A stretch of DNA of 49,598 nucleotides from Candidatus Aquabacterium excrementipullorum (GTDB taxonomy: Bacteria; Pseudomonadota; Gammaproteobacteria; Burkholderiales; Burkholderiaceae_C): NCBI GenBank assembly GCA_019112875.1, contig DXIO01000098.1, positions 1 through 49,598 of the forward strand, given 5' to 3'. A model generated the notes under the pieces. That model did no database searches and was not told the DNA's origin. It saw nothing but the letters and a program-made list of their open reading frames with translations. Shown in pieces: positions 20,158 to 25,412 of this stretch (position 1 is the stretch's first letter; the number at the start of each line of letters is the position of its first letter). Made by a program: the position numbers and the translations under genes.

Positions 20158-20530
20158 GCCGTTCTTCTTGCGTGGGGCCAGGCACGGCGGCGTCCAAGGC
20201 GGCTTGCGCCTGCGCCATCCCCAGCTCGATCAATTCATGGATCCGCTCCGGTGAGTAATCCAGTTGGCCTGATACGGCGTCGTGATCGAGCGGCGGCCGG
20301 CGGAGCAGCATCTCCTGTGCAGTCAGGCTCATCTTGCCGTGCATGAGCAACTCCAGCACCCGGTAGGCGATCTCGACCCCAGAGCTCGGTGATTTGCTGA
20401 CGTCCTCGCTCAGCGGCAGCAACGGCATCGCCAAGCCTTCACGCCAGAATGCCTTCATCGCGTGGGCACCCAAGGCACCGCCCCGGCCAAACATGACGGC
20501 CACCTTGAGTGGCATGGGCGCCGCGGTCAC
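20126..20530 (-). pseudogene. Truncated patatin-like ORF
   Basis: A 134-codon ORF starting with GTG that overlaps the catalase stop by 4 bp (GTGA). Residues about 8-30 (VAVMFGRGGALGAHAMKAFW) resemble the patatin oxyanion loop (GGGGAxGA), but the GxSxG serine motif that should follow 30 residues later is absent. The text jumps to a helical C-terminal piece (YSPERIHELIELGMAQAQAAL) like the end of DUF3734-containing patatins. So an internal deletion of a much longer gene is likely. It could still be translated as a small protein. Confidence 0.45.
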
Positions 20531-21441
20531 TTCTCCGATCCGCCCACCTGGGATGGGGTTTCCAAGCTGTCGTCATCAAGCGAGCCCATGCCCAGTTCCG
20601 CCCCCGTGACCGGATCGCTGGCGGGGTCGGATTGCGTGCGGATGATGGTCGCGCTGAGGGTGGCATCCTCCGTGGCACTGAGGATGACTTCGCCCAGCCC
20701 GTCGCCACCGTCCACTGCAGGGGCGGCTTCACGGTAGTCGAAGTTCTCATCGCTGTTCCAGGGGCCGCGCACGTCGCCCTCGCCGGGCGACATATTGAAA
20801 TACACCTTCGCGAATTCGGGGTGCGGCGGCAGCTTGCCGGGCGGGAAGTTGGGCGAGATGGCATAGAGCGCCTTCTCGAACGAGCGCTGGTGCGAGACCT
20901 CGCGTGTCATCAGGAACCCGAGCGCCTCCTTCACGCCAGGATCGTCGGTACAGTTGATCAGGCGCTCGTACACGATCTTCGCACGCGCCTCTGCAGCGAT
21001 GTTGGAACGCAGGTCGGCCGTGGGCTCGCCGATGGTGTCGATGTAGGCGGCCGTCCATGGCACGCCGCCAGAGTTCGTCAGCGGCGGGCCACCGCCGTAC
21101 AGCACCTGCGTCAGATGCGAATCGTTGCCAGCGCCTGTGATGGAGCGATACATCTCTGCTTCAGAGTCGATGCCTTCGGCGATGCGCCCCTTGGCGCCCT
21201 TGTTGAGCATCGCGACCATGGTGCCGATCACTTCGAGGTGACTCAACTCTTCCGTGGCGATGTCCATGAGCATGTCCTTGCGGCCCGGATCGTCCTCCGC
21301 CAGGGCCTGGGTGAAGTAGCGGCAGGCCGCCGCCAGTTCGCCTTGAGGGCCGCCGAACTGTTCGAGCAACAGGTTGGCCAGGCCAGGATTGCTTTCGCTC
21401 ACGCGAACGGTGTATTGGAGACGCTTGTTGTGGGCAAACAT
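20527..21441 (-). CDS. Manganese (non-heme) catalase
   Basis: A 304-residue dimanganese catalase that splits hydrogen peroxide without heme. The ligand set is complete: Glu35 (QGELAAA), Glu65 and His68 (TEELSHLE), Glu151 (AAEARAKIVYE) and His184 (REVSHQRSFEKAL), at the same spacings as in characterised enzymes. The C-terminal tail beyond about residue 245 is acidic and Ser/Thr/Gly-rich. The ATG at 21439-21441 has GGAAGGA eight bases upstream, and the in-frame extension before it is not protein-like. It heads a run with the truncated patatin ORF and the LLM oxidoreductase. Confidence 0.95.
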   Translation of the reverse strand: MFAHNKRLQYTVRVSESNPGLANLLLEQFGGPQGELAAACRYFTQALAEDDPGRKDMLMDIATEELSHLEVIGTMVAMLNKGAKGRIAEGIDSEAEMYRSITGAGNDSHLTQVLYGGGPPLTNSGGVPWTAAYIDTIGEPTADLRSNIAAEARAKIVYERLINCTDDPGVKEALGFLMTREVSHQRSFEKALYAISPNFPPGKLPPHPEFAKVYFNMSPGEGDVRGPWNSDENFDYREAAPAVDGGDGLGEVILSATEDATLSATIIRTQSDPASDPVTGAELGMGSLDDDSLETPSQVGGSEK

Positions 21442-21663: not shown

Positions 21664-22059
21664 TCAACGACCACCGGCCCCGCCGCCAGAGGATCCTGAG
21701 CCGGACGTTCCGGAACCGCCAGACGATCCACTGCCAGCCCCCGTTGTGCCGCCACTGCCACTGCCACTGCCACTGCCTGTGCCTGTGCCTGTGCTGCCCG
21801 ACGTGGAGCCGCCAGAAGACGACCCGTTGTTGCCGGCACTTCCCGATGAAGAACCACCCGACCGGCTGCGGCTGGCGTCGGCATCGCTCGCGCGACGCTG
21901 CGTGCCATTGGCGCGCTGGGTGCCACTGCCCGATCCGGTGGAGGTGGCAGTGCTGCCGGTGCCCGTGGTGTTGCCGCTGGAGGATTGCGCCTGTGCCAGC
22001 GCCATGGATGAGGAAAGCAGGGAGGCAAGGGTCACTTGCAAGAATGTCGATGTCTTCAT
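21664..22059 (-). CDS. Exported Gly/Ser/Thr-rich low-complexity protein
   Basis: A 131-residue protein. The signal peptide is MKTSTFLQVTLASLLSSSMA with cleavage near ALA-QAQ. Everything after it is Gly, Ser, Thr and Ala with a central basic/acidic patch (QRRASDADASRSRSGG). The distal half is coded by imperfect GCCACT/GCCTGT hexamers, which give Gly-Ser and Gly-Thr dipeptides. The ribosome binding site is GGAGA, six bases before ATG. No domain is recognisable; secreted or matrix-like and flexible-linker roles are possible. Its neighbours are stress genes. Confidence 0.65.
   Translation of the reverse strand: MKTSTFLQVTLASLLSSSMALAQAQSSSGNTTGTGSTATSTGSGSGTQRANGTQRRASDADASRSRSGGSSSGSAGNNGSSSGGSTSGSTGTGTGSGSGSGSGGTTGAGSGSSGGSGTSGSGSSGGGAGGR
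21742..21800. repeat. GCCACT/GCCTGT hexanucleotide tandem repeat
   Basis: Within the Gly/Ser-rich gene, about four CACTGC units (starting in GCCGCCACTGCC) run straight into three TGTGCC units. The unit length keeps the reading frame, so copy-number change would vary the length of the Gly-Ser/Gly-Thr tract. Confidence 0.7.
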
Positions 22060-22340
22060 GGGATTCTCCAAAGCAAAAAGTCGTGATGTAGATGGATGTC
22101 CACCGTGGATCAACACGCTGGAGGCGCCACATTGCAAAGGAGATGCCTGGGGTTCACCGATGCCCTTCGCATCGACGTGGACGCGAACGAAGCGCCTATC
22201 ACCCATGAGCGAGCCCGAGAAGGTGGCCAGCGCCATCCCCGGGCGCGACAGACCAATGTCCGCCGACATGCCGTCGTCGATGGCGACTGAGCGCGTGCCG
22301 GGCAGCCTGGCGGCCAACTGCCCGGCATGGCAGCACGGCA
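22060..22340. other. Intergenic region without a recognised gene
   Basis: 281 bp between the Gly/Ser-rich gene and the AAA-M41 gene, both leftward. Short open frames exist on both strands but lack ribosome binding sites and family resemblance. It should contain the promoter of the Gly/Ser-rich gene. Confidence 0.4.
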
Positions 22341-24254
22341 TCATGCTGCCCAACCGGCACCAAGCGCTGCATTGCGCCGAGCCCCCTCTCGAAAGGCCGC
22401 CAGCCTGTTCGCATAAGGATCCAGGGCGCCCTCCGGCACGTTCACCTTCAGCCCGGTCACCGCAGCAAACCGCGCTGGCGTGACCTGCCCTTGCAACACC
22501 AGCTCATCGATCAAAGCCAGCAGGGCGTCACGATGCGCTTCGAGCAGTTCCGTCGCGCGCGCATGCTCGGCCTGCAGCAGCGCTTCGATCGGCGCGTTGC
22601 TGGCCTCCACATCGGTGCAAAGGTTGTCTTCGCTGTTGACGGAGACGTCGATGCGGCCCACGCGCTCACCATGCCCCAGGTGGCGCAACATCTGAGCGGC
22701 CTTTTCCGTGGCCTTGCGCAGATCGCTCTCGGCCCCGCTGGAGCTGAGTTCAGCCCCGAAGACGAGCAACTCGGCGGCCCGGCCCGCCAGGCTGGTGCAG
22801 ATCGAATCGAGCAGATTGCGACGCGACCAGACCTTGCGAGACGAATAGGCGTTGTAGCCGCCCTCGAAGCTGGCCACATGGATCTTGATCTCCTGCGGTG
22901 CTCGGCCAAAAAGCAGCGCATGGACCAGCCCATGGCCTGCCTCATGCACGGCCAGCAAGGCGCGGAAATCCGGGTTGCTGCGCTGGCGCAAACGGTTGAT
23001 CTCGAAAGGCGCTGCGATGGCATGCGACTGGCAGCCCCAATGCGCGATCAGGCTGCGGCCATCGGCCGCGAGGACCACGGTGTCGCCCTCCGCTGCACCG
23101 CGCTCCAGCGCCCACAGCGCCGCCTTCGCCAGGCCGGCACCCATGATGGCATGCAGCGACGAGAACAGCGGCCGCGTACCCTGCGCCGGGAACACGGCAT
23201 TGGCGTAGATCTGCTCGCGCAAGCTGGCGTCCACGTCGAAGCGCAGGCCACAGCGATCGGCCGTCTCCCGGGCGTAGCGCGTGCACCCTTGAACGATCAA
23301 CTGCTCGTAGGCATGGCGGCTGAGCGACGGATAGATCACATGCTCATTGCCCAGGCGCGCCACCTGCTCAGGCTTGAAGCGCAGGTTCAGCGCCTGCTTG
23401 ACGTCGATGACACTCAGCTTGCTCGTCACCGCGTGGAAGGTGTCGGCATCGCTGTCGCAGTCGTCCACGCTGGTGGCGATGCCCTCGTACATCTCGTCGA
23501 GGTTGCCGCAGATGAACACGAGCAGCCGGCTGTAGTCCGTCTCCCATTGCTGCTGGCCACTCTCGCGGAAGGCACGCAGGCGCTGCTGGATCTGCTCAGG
23601 GCTCCAACCCATGATCTCCATCAACGGCTCGTCGAGCTTGAGGTTGCGCTGCAGTTCCTTGGCCTCCCAGCTGCGCAGCTTGAAGCGTCGCTTGGCCTCG
23701 TCGGCCTCGGCGCGTTCGGCGTCGTAGGCCGCCTCCGCGATGGACGCCTCGATGTCGCCCAGCAGCGAGAGCGCGGGCGGCAGGCGGCCATCGGACAGCA
23801 GGGCCCACACATCCTGGTAGCGCTCGACACGCACGTCATTGCGCTTGTTGTCGATGGTGCGAAAGCGCTGGAACTCGTCGAGCACCAGGATGCCGGGCTC
23901 TCCTTCACGCACGCCGGATTGCGTCAGCATGCCCGAGATGCTTTGCGCGCCGCGCCAGCCCGCGCCATTGGAAAAGCCATCCATCTGCACTTCGACGAAG
24001 CGGTCGTAGAAGCCGAGCAGTTGGGCCAGGCGCCGCACGAGCTGCGTCTTGCCGGTGCCCGTGAGGCCCCAGAGGCAGACGATGACAGGCCGCGTGACCA
24101 GCTCGGGCAGCACGTACCACGCGCGCACCGAGTCGATGACACGATCGACGACGGCTTCGATGCCGAACAGTTCGGTCTTGAGTTGGGCAGCTATTTCCTG
24201 CAACCGCTGACTTCTCTGCGCGAGCTTGTCGCGCAATATTTGGATGTCATTCAT
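22341..24254 (-). CDS. Clp-type AAA+ ATPase fused to FtsH-type M41 zinc metallopeptidase
   Basis: A 637-residue protein with an unusual domain order. Residues 1-25 are coiled-coil-like. Residues about 30-380 form an AAA+ module: Walker A GLTGTGKT (63-70), Walker B GILVLDEF (121-128), sensor-1 Asn251, a candidate arginine finger Arg300 (KPEQVARLGNEHVIYP), and a sensor-2-like GTRPLFSSL (359-367). The last resembles the GARPL motif of ClpA/ClpB/ClpX-type proteins rather than FtsH. Residues about 425-590 are an M41 peptidase: HEAGH at 437-441 and the third zinc ligand Asp511 (GAESDLRKAT). No membrane segment is present, unlike FtsH. It is probably a cytosolic ATP-driven protease. Substrates and partners are unknown; the upstream ORF overlaps by 8 bp. 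Confidence 0.88.
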   Translation of the reverse strand: MNDIQILRDKLAQRSQRLQEIAAQLKTELFGIEAVVDRVIDSVRAWYVLPELVTRPVIVCLWGLTGTGKTQLVRRLAQLLGFYDRFVEVQMDGFSNGAGWRGAQSISGMLTQSGVREGEPGILVLDEFQRFRTIDNKRNDVRVERYQDVWALLSDGRLPPALSLLGDIEASIAEAAYDAERAEADEAKRRFKLRSWEAKELQRNLKLDEPLMEIMGWSPEQIQQRLRAFRESGQQQWETDYSRLLVFICGNLDEMYEGIATSVDDCDSDADTFHAVTSKLSVIDVKQALNLRFKPEQVARLGNEHVIYPSLSRHAYEQLIVQGCTRYARETADRCGLRFDVDASLREQIYANAVFPAQGTRPLFSSLHAIMGAGLAKAALWALERGAAEGDTVVLAADGRSLIAHWGCQSHAIAAPFEINRLRQRSNPDFRALLAVHEAGHGLVHALLFGRAPQEIKIHVASFEGGYNAYSSRKVWSRRNLLDSICTSLAGRAAELLVFGAELSSSGAESDLRKATEKAAQMLRHLGHGERVGRIDVSVNSEDNLCTDVEASNAPIEALLQAEHARATELLEAHRDALLALIDELVLQGQVTPARFAAVTGLKVNVPEGALDPYANRLAAFREGARRNAALGAGWAA

Positions 24255-24489
24255 CCCAATCCTCCCTTCGCAGCAGCGCCTTCAGCGCCACGCGGTCGGC
24301 GCGGCGCTGGGCACCGCGGCTCTGGATATGTTGACCTGCGCCACGCGAGCCACGCTGGGCCAGCGCGCGCGCCACGGGGTCGCGCGCACCGGGGCTCGCT
24401 TCGAGCACCAGCGTCATCGGCTGTTTCATGCGGCGCAGGGCCTTGACCCGCCCCTCCTGGAGGGCGCGGGAACGGAGTTGTGCACTCAT
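24247..24489 (-). CDS. Small basic protein coupled to the AAA-M41 protease
   Basis: An 80-residue Arg/Ala/Leu-rich protein (MSAQLRSRALQEGRVKALRRMKQPMTLVLE..., ending REDWDE). Its stop overlaps the protease ATG by 8 bp, which argues for translation of both from one mRNA. I recognise no domain. Size, charge and coupling suggest an adaptor or substrate of the protease, but this is inference. The start chosen is the ATG at 24487-24489, just downstream of a terminator-like hairpin; the frame stays open to a GTG at 24576 and neither start has a strong Shine-Dalgarno. Confidence 0.6.
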   Translation of the reverse strand: MSAQLRSRALQEGRVKALRRMKQPMTLVLEASPGARDPVARALAQRGSRGAGQHIQSRGAQRRADRVALKALLRREDWDE

Positions 24490-24500
24490 TCGGTTCTTGA

Positions 24501-24540
24501 AAAACAAAAGCCCCGGCTCAATGGCAGCGGGGCTTTGCTT
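24501..24540 (-). terminator. Terminator-like hairpin in the leader of the protease operon
   Basis: Arms AAAGCCCCG and CGGGGCTTT (24507-24515, 24528-24536) with a 12-base loop are followed, in leftward reading, by TTTTGTTTTTC, a good U-tract. No leftward gene ends here, so it lies in the 5' leader of the 80-residue ORF. It could act as an attenuator or end a short leader RNA. Confidence 0.6.
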
Positions 24541-24571
24541 CGCCGCGCGGTCTGAGGCCGTATCTGGAGCA

Positions 24572-24604
24572 GACACGGTTCAGCCGGGGCTTGGGAACCG
24601 TGTC
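24572..24604. promoter_or_regulatory. Perfect 10-bp inverted repeat upstream of the protease operon
   Basis: GACACGGTTC (24572-24581) and GAACCGTGTC (24595-24604) flank 13 bases. It lies about 85-115 bp before the 80-residue ORF and upstream of the terminator-like hairpin in leftward transcription. It could be an operator or an alternative RNA hairpin. Confidence 0.55.
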
Positions 24605-24845
24605 AGTCGATGGTCGATGTGAACAAGGAGGACATATGAGGGATCTCCATCATGTGAGGAGTTTGGAGGGCGCTGTCGTGGGCGCCTTCTGCCGTTGGGG
24701 GCGGATGATACAGACAACGATACACGTGCGCAAGCGGGCGCGCGGACAGGAATAATGCACCGTTGTCGAAACCACCCCAACCTGTTCGTCGTTGGGTTGG
24801 CACTCTTGCCAAGCCTCGCATGAAGTTCGCACAAAGGAACGAAAA

Positions 24846-25412
24846 ATGAAATCGCCGCTGCTCGCTTGCGCCCTGCTCGCTGCCGCTGTCCAGGCCGCAC
24901 CCGTGACCTACGACATCGACCCGACGCACACTTACCCCAGCTTCGAGGCCGACCACATGGGCATGTCCTACTGGCGCGGCAAACTGAACCAGAACGCCGG
25001 CACCATCGTCTACGACAAGGTCACGGGCGCAGGCAGCGTCGATGTGACGATGGACCTGGCCAGCATCGACTTCGGCCTGGAGGCGATGAACGCCTGGGCC
25101 AAGGGCAAGGACTTCTTCAACATCGAGAAGTACCCAAGCGCGACGTTCAAGGGCCGCTTCGACGGCGCCACGGCCGGTGTGCCGACCCAGGTGGTGGGCG
25201 TGCTGACGCTGAATGGCAAGACCCGACCGATGACGCTGACCATCCACCAACTCAAATGCATGCCGCACCCGATGTTCAAGCGCGACTTCTGTGGTGCTGA
25301 TGCTTCAGGCAGCTTCAACCGCGAAGCGTTCGGCCTGGGCGCCGGCAAGGACTGGGGCTTCAAGATGGATGTGAACCTGCGCATCCAGGTAGAAGCCGTC
25401 GCCAAGGAGTGA
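24846..25412 (+). CDS. YceI-family periplasmic protein
   Basis: A 188-residue secreted protein. The signal peptide MKSPLLACALLAAAVQA is cleaved near QAA-P, then comes the YceI lipocalin-like barrel: VTYDIDPTHTYPSFEADHMG, SASFKG-type ATFKGRF, then GVLTLNGKTRPMTL and FNREAFGLGAGKDWGFKMDV. Family members bind isoprenoid quinone-like lipids in the periplasm; the exact role is unsettled. AAAGGAACG precedes the ATG. It is divergent from the protease operon, with 356 bp between the two starts. Confidence 0.92.
   Translation: MKSPLLACALLAAAVQAAPVTYDIDPTHTYPSFEADHMGMSYWRGKLNQNAGTIVYDKVTGAGSVDVTMDLASIDFGLEAMNAWAKGKDFFNIEKYPSATFKGRFDGATAGVPTQVVGVLTLNGKTRPMTLTIHQLKCMPHPMFKRDFCGADASGSFNREAFGLGAGKDWGFKMDVNLRIQVEAVAKE

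Follow-up and report, generated by a model that had tools for sequence, protein, structure and literature searches.

A predicted soluble protease joining a Clp-type AAA+ ATPase to an M41 metallopeptidase in Burkholderiales and large phages

A stretch of 49,598 nucleotides (nt) from Candidatus Aquabacterium excrementipullorum (contig DXIO01000098.1 of assembly GCA_019112875.1; hereafter the window) contains a minus-strand open reading frame (ORF) at 22341..24254, whose translation is a 637-residue protein that fuses an AAA+ ATPase to a zinc peptidase of the M41 family (Table 1). We consider it probable, with good confidence, that this fusion protein works as a zinc metalloprotease, soluble, ATP-dependent and made of one chain, in which a Clp-type ring threads substrates into an M41 chamber. 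The ATPase belongs to the Clp/Lon group and is most like Clp D2, an assignment made from profiles, motifs and an AlphaFold model and not from a tree of the AAA+ clades.

The two halves of the protein were recognised separately by the domain databases. Pfam places Peptidase_M41 at residues 431–592 (E-value 6.8e-20; 72.2 bits, cut-off 29.9) and the P-loop domain AAA at residues 59–143 (32.1 bits, cut-off 21.2). The NCBIfam FtsH model reaches only residues 428–588 and scores 61.8 bits against a membership cut-off of 600, while the ClpB and ClpA models also fall below their cut-offs (30.0 bits of 1232.1, best stretch 284–401; and 25.1 bits of 993.15, best stretch 14–82). The best stretch of the NCBIfam Lon model, residues 13–102, lies outside the C-terminal M41 domain. 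Sequence matches to solved FtsH-family structures are likewise confined to residues 412–612, and ClpE (14–94) and Lon (18–131) are the solved structures that follow, matching in the ATPase part. In the AlphaFold model of the fusion protein (predicted local distance difference test, pLDDT, 90.9), structure matches make the ATPase fold most like ClpB, ClpA and Skd3 and the peptidase like FtsH and AFG3L2; this comparison used the VIA list, which leaves room for families outside it, Lon among them.

A sequence-only reading of this DNA had proposed a pairing of unfoldase and protease different from that of FtsH, to be checked by searching the two parts separately. We built an ATPase profile from 137 aligned relatives, cut at residue 405, and scored it and an M41 profile on Escherichia coli K-12 references and an FtsH of the same genome. 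Over whole sequences, the ATPase profile gives ClpB 35.0 bits, ClpA 24.0, Lon 22.3, HslU 14.3 and ClpX 13.8, compared with 6.6 for the same-genome FtsH, 1.0 for E. coli FtsH and -1.0 for RuvB. The M41 profile gives 94.5 bits to E. coli FtsH, 68.2 to the host FtsH and at most 1.1 to every other reference. Thus the proposed pairing is supported, with profiles, motifs and the AlphaFold model in agreement. ClpB leads because both of its ends match the profile (17.0 + 14.1 bits), and the best single stretch is that of Lon (20.7 bits). Less favourable to a simple Clp assignment, the single sequence used in place of the profile gives the ranking Lon 18.5, HslU 12.8, host FtsH 8.5, ClpB 7.7, ClpX 7.6, ClpA 7.3 and FtsH 0.5.

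Among 66 diverse members, NCBIfam models match as ClpA in 66, ClpB in 65, FtsH in 66 and Lon in 15, and the FtsH match is restricted to the C-terminal part in the two members looked at in detail. Pfam AAA_2 matches 43 of these members and ClpB_D2-small matches three; in one relative (L122) the latter domain (PF10431) scores 22.8 bits, above its cut-off of 21.9. The family has the D2-type AAA+ module with a ClpB_D2-small domain expected of Clp/HSP100 proteins, which bears out the Clp-like small domain of the earlier prediction, and it has the M41 peptidase domain with HExxH and a distal Asp expected of FtsH proteins. A classic-clade AAA domain, another mark of FtsH, is absent as judged by profile scores rather than by a tree of AAA+ clades, and the C-terminal Ser-Lys protease of Lon is absent as well, the C-terminal domain being M41.

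In all 137 aligned relatives, G63, G66, G68, K69, D126, E127, N251, E296, R300 and R361 are invariant in the ATPase, as are H437, E438, H441, G491, E495 and D511 in the peptidase. Position 70 is T in 135 relatives and S in two, F293 is F in 135, and R292 is R in 118. At position 100, which lies in the stretch that bears the pore-1 aromatic in Clp proteins, 104 of 137 relatives have Y, F or W and 13 have H, and the motif alignment sets RFKPEQVARL under FRPEFINRI of ClpB. The HEAGH motif (437–441) and Asp511 named by the sequence-only reading thus hold on the minus-strand product, and its sensor-2-like GTRPL motif is found at residues 359–363. Between Walker B and sensor 1 the family has some 80 additional residues, largely helical in the model, which are not seen in the aligned E. 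coli ClpA, ClpB, ClpX, HslU and FtsH.

The predicted lack of a membrane segment also held up: the hydropathy maximum (Kyte-Doolittle, 19-residue window) is 1.30, well short of the 2.32 of E. coli FtsH and the 2.36 of the same-genome FtsH, and by hydropathy, the one measure used here, no N-terminal transmembrane segment is evident. Hydropathy exceeds 1.6 in 11 of 137 relatives, of which the eight highest windows lie at residues 361–375 and 573–615 of the respective chains, not at the N-terminus.

Based on these motifs and predicted folds, six copies would assemble into a ring, in which the ClpB/ClpA-D2-type AAA+ part would grip and unfold substrates by a usually aromatic pore loop. Unfolded substrates would then be threaded into a chamber built from the six M41 peptidase domains, with proteolysis driven by ATP.

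From three protein searches we obtained at least 360 distinct proteins, counting the query itself, and nearly all of them match over most of its length. They come from the best 120 matches in each search (of 2772, 2745 and 2112 with E ≤ 1e-3), and weaker ones may share M41 alone. Their names in the databases include 'AAA family ATPase', 'peptidase M41', 'cell division protease FtsH', 'hypothetical protein' and 'Peptidase family M41/ATPase family...', with a few unrelated ones, and the nearest proteins among the matches listed are from Aquabacterium, Piscinibacter, Rhizobacter, Pelomonas and Ideonella. Because motif residues are kept over the 137 aligned relatives and nearly all the listed proteins match over most of the query, we take the fusion gene to be more than a product of chance.

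Within the host's GTDB family, the full-length protein occurs in six of 60 genomes; within its order, one genome in 200 matches at E ≤ 1e-30, namely the host itself. Profile surveys of the class and the phylum returned mostly ordinary FtsH, and the full-length proteins among the matches listed were those of the host and genome G615 (of 398) and of the host and genome G702 (of 274), respectively. A genome scan with patterns from close relatives confirmed 108 stretches, of which we kept 80. Nearly all of these are titled as Burkholderiales genera or other beta-proteobacteria, along with a few metagenome-assembled genomes (MAGs) titled only Gammaproteobacteria, Pseudomonadota or Proteobacteria. 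A second bacterial branch comprises Thiothrix, Thiolinea and one MAG named Bacteroidia. Plasmids yielded 56 matching records, none covering 80% of the query, and the 20 listed match residues 411–635 only.

In many genera the fusion gene appears to form a small operon with a gene for an 80-residue basic protein, behind a putative regulatory leader RNA. Coding of the small gene is supported by 19 pairwise comparisons, with differences of 144/49/330 by codon position. The product carries a net charge of +8 to +16 over 56 copies and has the consensus ...LRRMKQPL...PRNPVA.AL...AGKHIRS.GAQRRAD..., and neither Pfam nor NCBIfam has a family to which it can be assigned.

We tentatively suggest, at somewhat less than even probability, that this protein is a dedicated partner of the protease, either an adaptor or a regulated substrate, and that the pair serves a narrow regulatory purpose and not quality control in general. 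At E < 1e-10 the small gene is found in all six family genomes with the fusion and in none of the 54 without it; in one of the six it lies about 0.8 kb from the fusion. It stands beside the fusion at 56 of 80 loci and overlaps it by 8 nt in 23 of the 56 measured, this one included. The structure model is poor (pLDDT 66.7; predicted template modelling score 0.27), which is compatible with a flexible basic protein. Against a partner role, 24 of the 80 loci lack the small gene, those of Variovorax and some cut-short contigs included; among eight genomes without an adjacent copy, five have a partial match elsewhere and three have none at E ≤ 0.1. The small gene was also not detected in the phage loci searched, and weak matches (E 0.001–0.01) occur in five of the 54 fusion-free genomes.

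The leader region before the small gene (24490–24653, minus strand) contains covarying RNA, a 10-codon leader ORF and a terminator-like stem. A short leader ORF with a Shine-Dalgarno-like site, mostly of 9–10 codons, is present in 51 of 56 loci, a count made with no chance control. In hairpin A the loop is GCCCCGGC in 34 of 35 sequences and GTCCCGGC in the remaining one (L125), eight of nine pairs show two-sided changes, and the contiguous stem is 7–10 bp in 28 of 35 sequences (shuffled means 3.8–5.8), being weaker or broken in seven; kinship alone can beat shuffled sequences without structure. Taken jointly, hairpin A and the terminator-like helix outperform each of 500 shuffles and all the slid controls, and RNAalifold recovers the same two helices. 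The second stem, which has a longer loop, is called terminator-like by reading, since scans of 24200–25000 for sigma-70 and terminator consensus sequences called nothing. Rfam gave no credible match to the leader and one chance match, a crude sigma-32 pattern for a heat-shock promoter was found in 0 of 56 loci, and the exact leader pattern occurs once in the host genome.

We read the leader as a putative translation-dependent attenuator. The alternative pairing that would complete it, between the hairpin A loop and the terminator arm, is possible over 8–9 bp in 35 of 35 sequences, with one compensated pair in L125. However, this pairing shows no covariation by alignment count, and 500 of 500 shuffles pair as highly, so it is suggestive at most. 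Single-sequence folds hint at a possible long-range pairing of the leader with the ribosome-binding site of the small gene. A search on leader peptides in the open-access literature of PubMed Central (PMC) showed no description of this leader. Of 21 loci without the small gene, 17, all from Variovorax, have another conserved leader ORF, roughly 30 codons long, ahead of the fusion; in L030, L031 and others it lies about 225–325 nt upstream and typically ends in ...RV.LPRPA* or ...LLRPA*.

Table 1. Features of the fusion gene and its upstream region, in window positions
Feature	Position	Strand	Basis
Leader ORF MSSLFTSTID* with Shine-Dalgarno-like site	24603..24635	-	Short ORF by the same rule in 51/56 loci
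Hairpin A (ACACGGTTC/GAACCGTGT), near-invariant GCCCCGGC loop, begins on leader stop codon	24573..24603	-	Covariation; RNAalifold
Terminator-like stem-loop before the small gene, 3' arm able to pair with hairpin A loop	24506..24536	-	
Conserved upstream gene, 80-residue basic protein	24247..24489	-	Overlaps fusion start by 8 nt; 56/80 fusion loci
Fusion gene, predicted Clp-type AAA+ / M41 metalloprotease, 637 residues	22341..24254	-	Pfam, AlphaFold model
AAA+ module, residues 1–414 (large domain, family insert, ClpB-D2-type small domain)	23013..24254	-	Profile scores, structure matches, PF10431 in L122
Walker A GLTGTGKT, residues 63–70	24045..24068	-	G63/G66/G68/K69 in 137/137
Walker B GILVLDE, residues 121–127	23874..23894	-	D126/E127 in 137/137
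Family-specific insert, largely helical, residues about 158–238	23541..23783	-	Alignment; helices in model
Arg finger candidate R300 in RFKPEQVARL	23355..23357	-	137/137; aligned with ClpB FRPEFINR
Sensor 2 QGTRP, residues 358–362, R361	23169..23183	-	137/137
M41 zinc peptidase domain, residues 425–610	22425..22982	-	
HEAGH, residues 437–441, zinc/catalytic motif	22932..22946	-	H437/E438/H441 in 137/137
D511, third zinc ligand candidate	22722..22724	-	137/137

Downstream of the fusion in the window, on the same strand, are a Ser/Gly/Thr-rich ORF (21664–22353) without a Pfam match and with a possible signal peptide by eye, and then a manganese catalase gene (20527–21441). A plus-strand frame at 22341–24254 was considered and rejected as an antisense open frame. 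In G702 the fusion gene lies between His_biosynth and PRA-PH genes, with tatA/B/C-like genes by reading of the locus. In Albitalea (L005:8095-9334) a series of small, mutually similar genes comes after it; Pfam identifies the first as RebB (killing trait; PF11747), and the rest were assigned by eye. In Xenophilus (L027:1324-13165) it has on one side a gene for an HrpA-type helicase (DEAD, HA2, DUF3418) and on the other an amino-acid kinase/GNAT gene that reads as argA-like; a large ORF also lies in this interval.

The family is also found in viral contigs, where four scans gave 2, 10, 44 and 56 overlapping loci. These contain 58 distinct viral ORFs with both domains, on contigs of up to 548 kb. 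Among 28 large viral contigs, Terminase_6N is over its cut-off in 12, and tail sheath matches occur in five, one of them over the cut-off. On a 112-kb viral contig (L086:4894-7732) the protease gene comes after genes for nicotinamide phosphoribosyltransferase and NAD kinase; these neighbours hint that the phage salvages NAD. In two related phage contigs (L090:7060-8004 and L091:7024-7968) it directly follows a clamp-loader-like gene, so called from a PHROG clamp loader match in the former, where the two genes overlap by 4 nt, and from Pfam AAA in the latter. A role as a defence system was considered and rejected, as PADLOC gives weak matches inside the AAA+ part alone (2.7e-9 in L122, the best; 1e-7 in L087; 3.8e-5 in P0002).

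Among 50,697 isolate phage records, searches returned 1 and 16 matching records, none extending beyond the M41 part. The jumbo phage PA5oct and its relative MIJ3 carry a gene annotated FtsH (PMC6892783). Alignment of the PA5oct protein to E. coli FtsH covers 92%, with 41.6% identity; the phage protein is an ordinary FtsH, unlike the fusion protein, and MIJ3 is not among the matches listed. An FtsH-like gene of an Erythrobacter phage is mentioned in PMC9127768.

Trees of 74 and 78 rows, built by a quick method, unrooted and with Shimodaira-Hasegawa-like approximate likelihood-ratio support only, suggest that bacteria took up phage genes on more than one occasion. A viral row shorter than 560 residues was left out of the first tree; the second tree and an approximately unbiased (AU) test omitted 18 viral loci, which were long branches or near-duplicates, together with four Burkholderiales rows. 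The Burkholderiales proteins all fall to the same side of one branch, with support of 89 and 93, and are nested among viral rows. A single clade of cellular and Thiotrichales-like rows is 108 log units worse and is rejected (p-AU 1.2e-7), which suggests separate entries from phage to bacterium; the group was chosen after the tree had been seen, and 14 of the 20 metagenome rows of unknown host were assigned to its cellular side, as was the Bacteroidia MAG. The Burkholderiales copy appears to be a phage gene taken in by an ancestor and now chromosomal.

This direction of transfer is read from unrooted trees and from viral sampling deeper than the bacterial (four viral scans, one bacterial genome scan). 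In an unrooted tree sampled in this way, phages could instead have taken the gene from bacteria several times, which we consider unlikely, with a minor share of the probability, since the more diverse viral rows surround a shallow Burkholderiales clade and the viral rows nearest to it (L172/L173) adjoin phage genes, their neighbours being Phage_capsid_3, SU10-adaptor and HU-type proteins.

The fusion protein shares with the D2 modules of ClpB, ClpA and ClpC, and with Skd3 (CLPB), the AAA+ large domain, the RFxPE..R finger, the GxRP sensor 2 and the D2-type small domain, and it differs from them in the fused M41 domain, the single AAA+ module and the insert. Those proteins work with a separate ClpP or without a protease; unlike ClpXP and ClpAP, the fusion protein carries its own metal peptidase. 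Lon is an HCLR-group AAA+ protein with a Ser-Lys protease. Like Lon, which supplies the best single-stretch match to the ATPase profile, the fusion protein is a single-chain AAA+ protease by prediction, whereas its peptidase is a zinc metallopeptidase. FtsH, m-AAA and i-AAA proteases likewise have an M41 zinc peptidase, with HExxH and a distal Asp, C-terminal to an AAA+ ATPase. FtsH itself combines membrane helices at the N-terminus with an AAA domain of the classic clade (in part PMC9020784), in contrast to the apparently anchor-free fusion protein with its Clp D2-like ATPase.

The M41 domain could serve as a scaffold, making the protein a pseudo-enzyme or chaperone that remodels without cutting, and plastid FtsHi proteins are described as pseudo-proteases in PMC8197885. 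We regard this as very improbable given that H437, E438, H441 and D511 of the peptidase do not vary among the relatives, nor do the key residues of the ATPase, and that HExxH lies in the C-terminal half of all 58 viral ORFs. That the protein is instead an FtsH that diverged, losing its membrane anchor while its ATPase drifted towards Clp-like motifs, is likewise very improbable, because the profile scores already point towards Clp D2/HCLR and away from classic AAA.

A pairing of a Clp motor with M41 was not found described in the open-access PMC literature, which agrees with the suggestion of the sequence-only reading that this is an undescribed family; its activity as a cytosolic ATP-dependent protease is a prediction. 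We give roughly even weight to a broader proposal, in which Clp D2 motor and M41 peptidase define an additional class of AAA+ protease, alongside ClpXP/ClpAP/ClpCP, HslUV, Lon, FtsH and the proteasomal systems, that diversified in huge phages, probably for clearing or remodelling proteins in the infected cytosol, and that was adopted by bacteria at least twice. In Burkholderiales the protease would have become part of a unit of three, along with a leader RNA that senses translation of a 9–10 codon ORF and a small basic protein serving as adaptor or substrate.

Five machines for ATP-dependent proteolysis are listed for E. coli in PMC9020784. If the fusion protein is a soluble metalloprotease with a Clp motor, one more would join the short list of bacterial ATP-dependent proteases, unfoldase and peptidase modules would prove able to be re-paired across clades within one chain, and huge phages would possess a cytosolic protein-degradation machine of their own.
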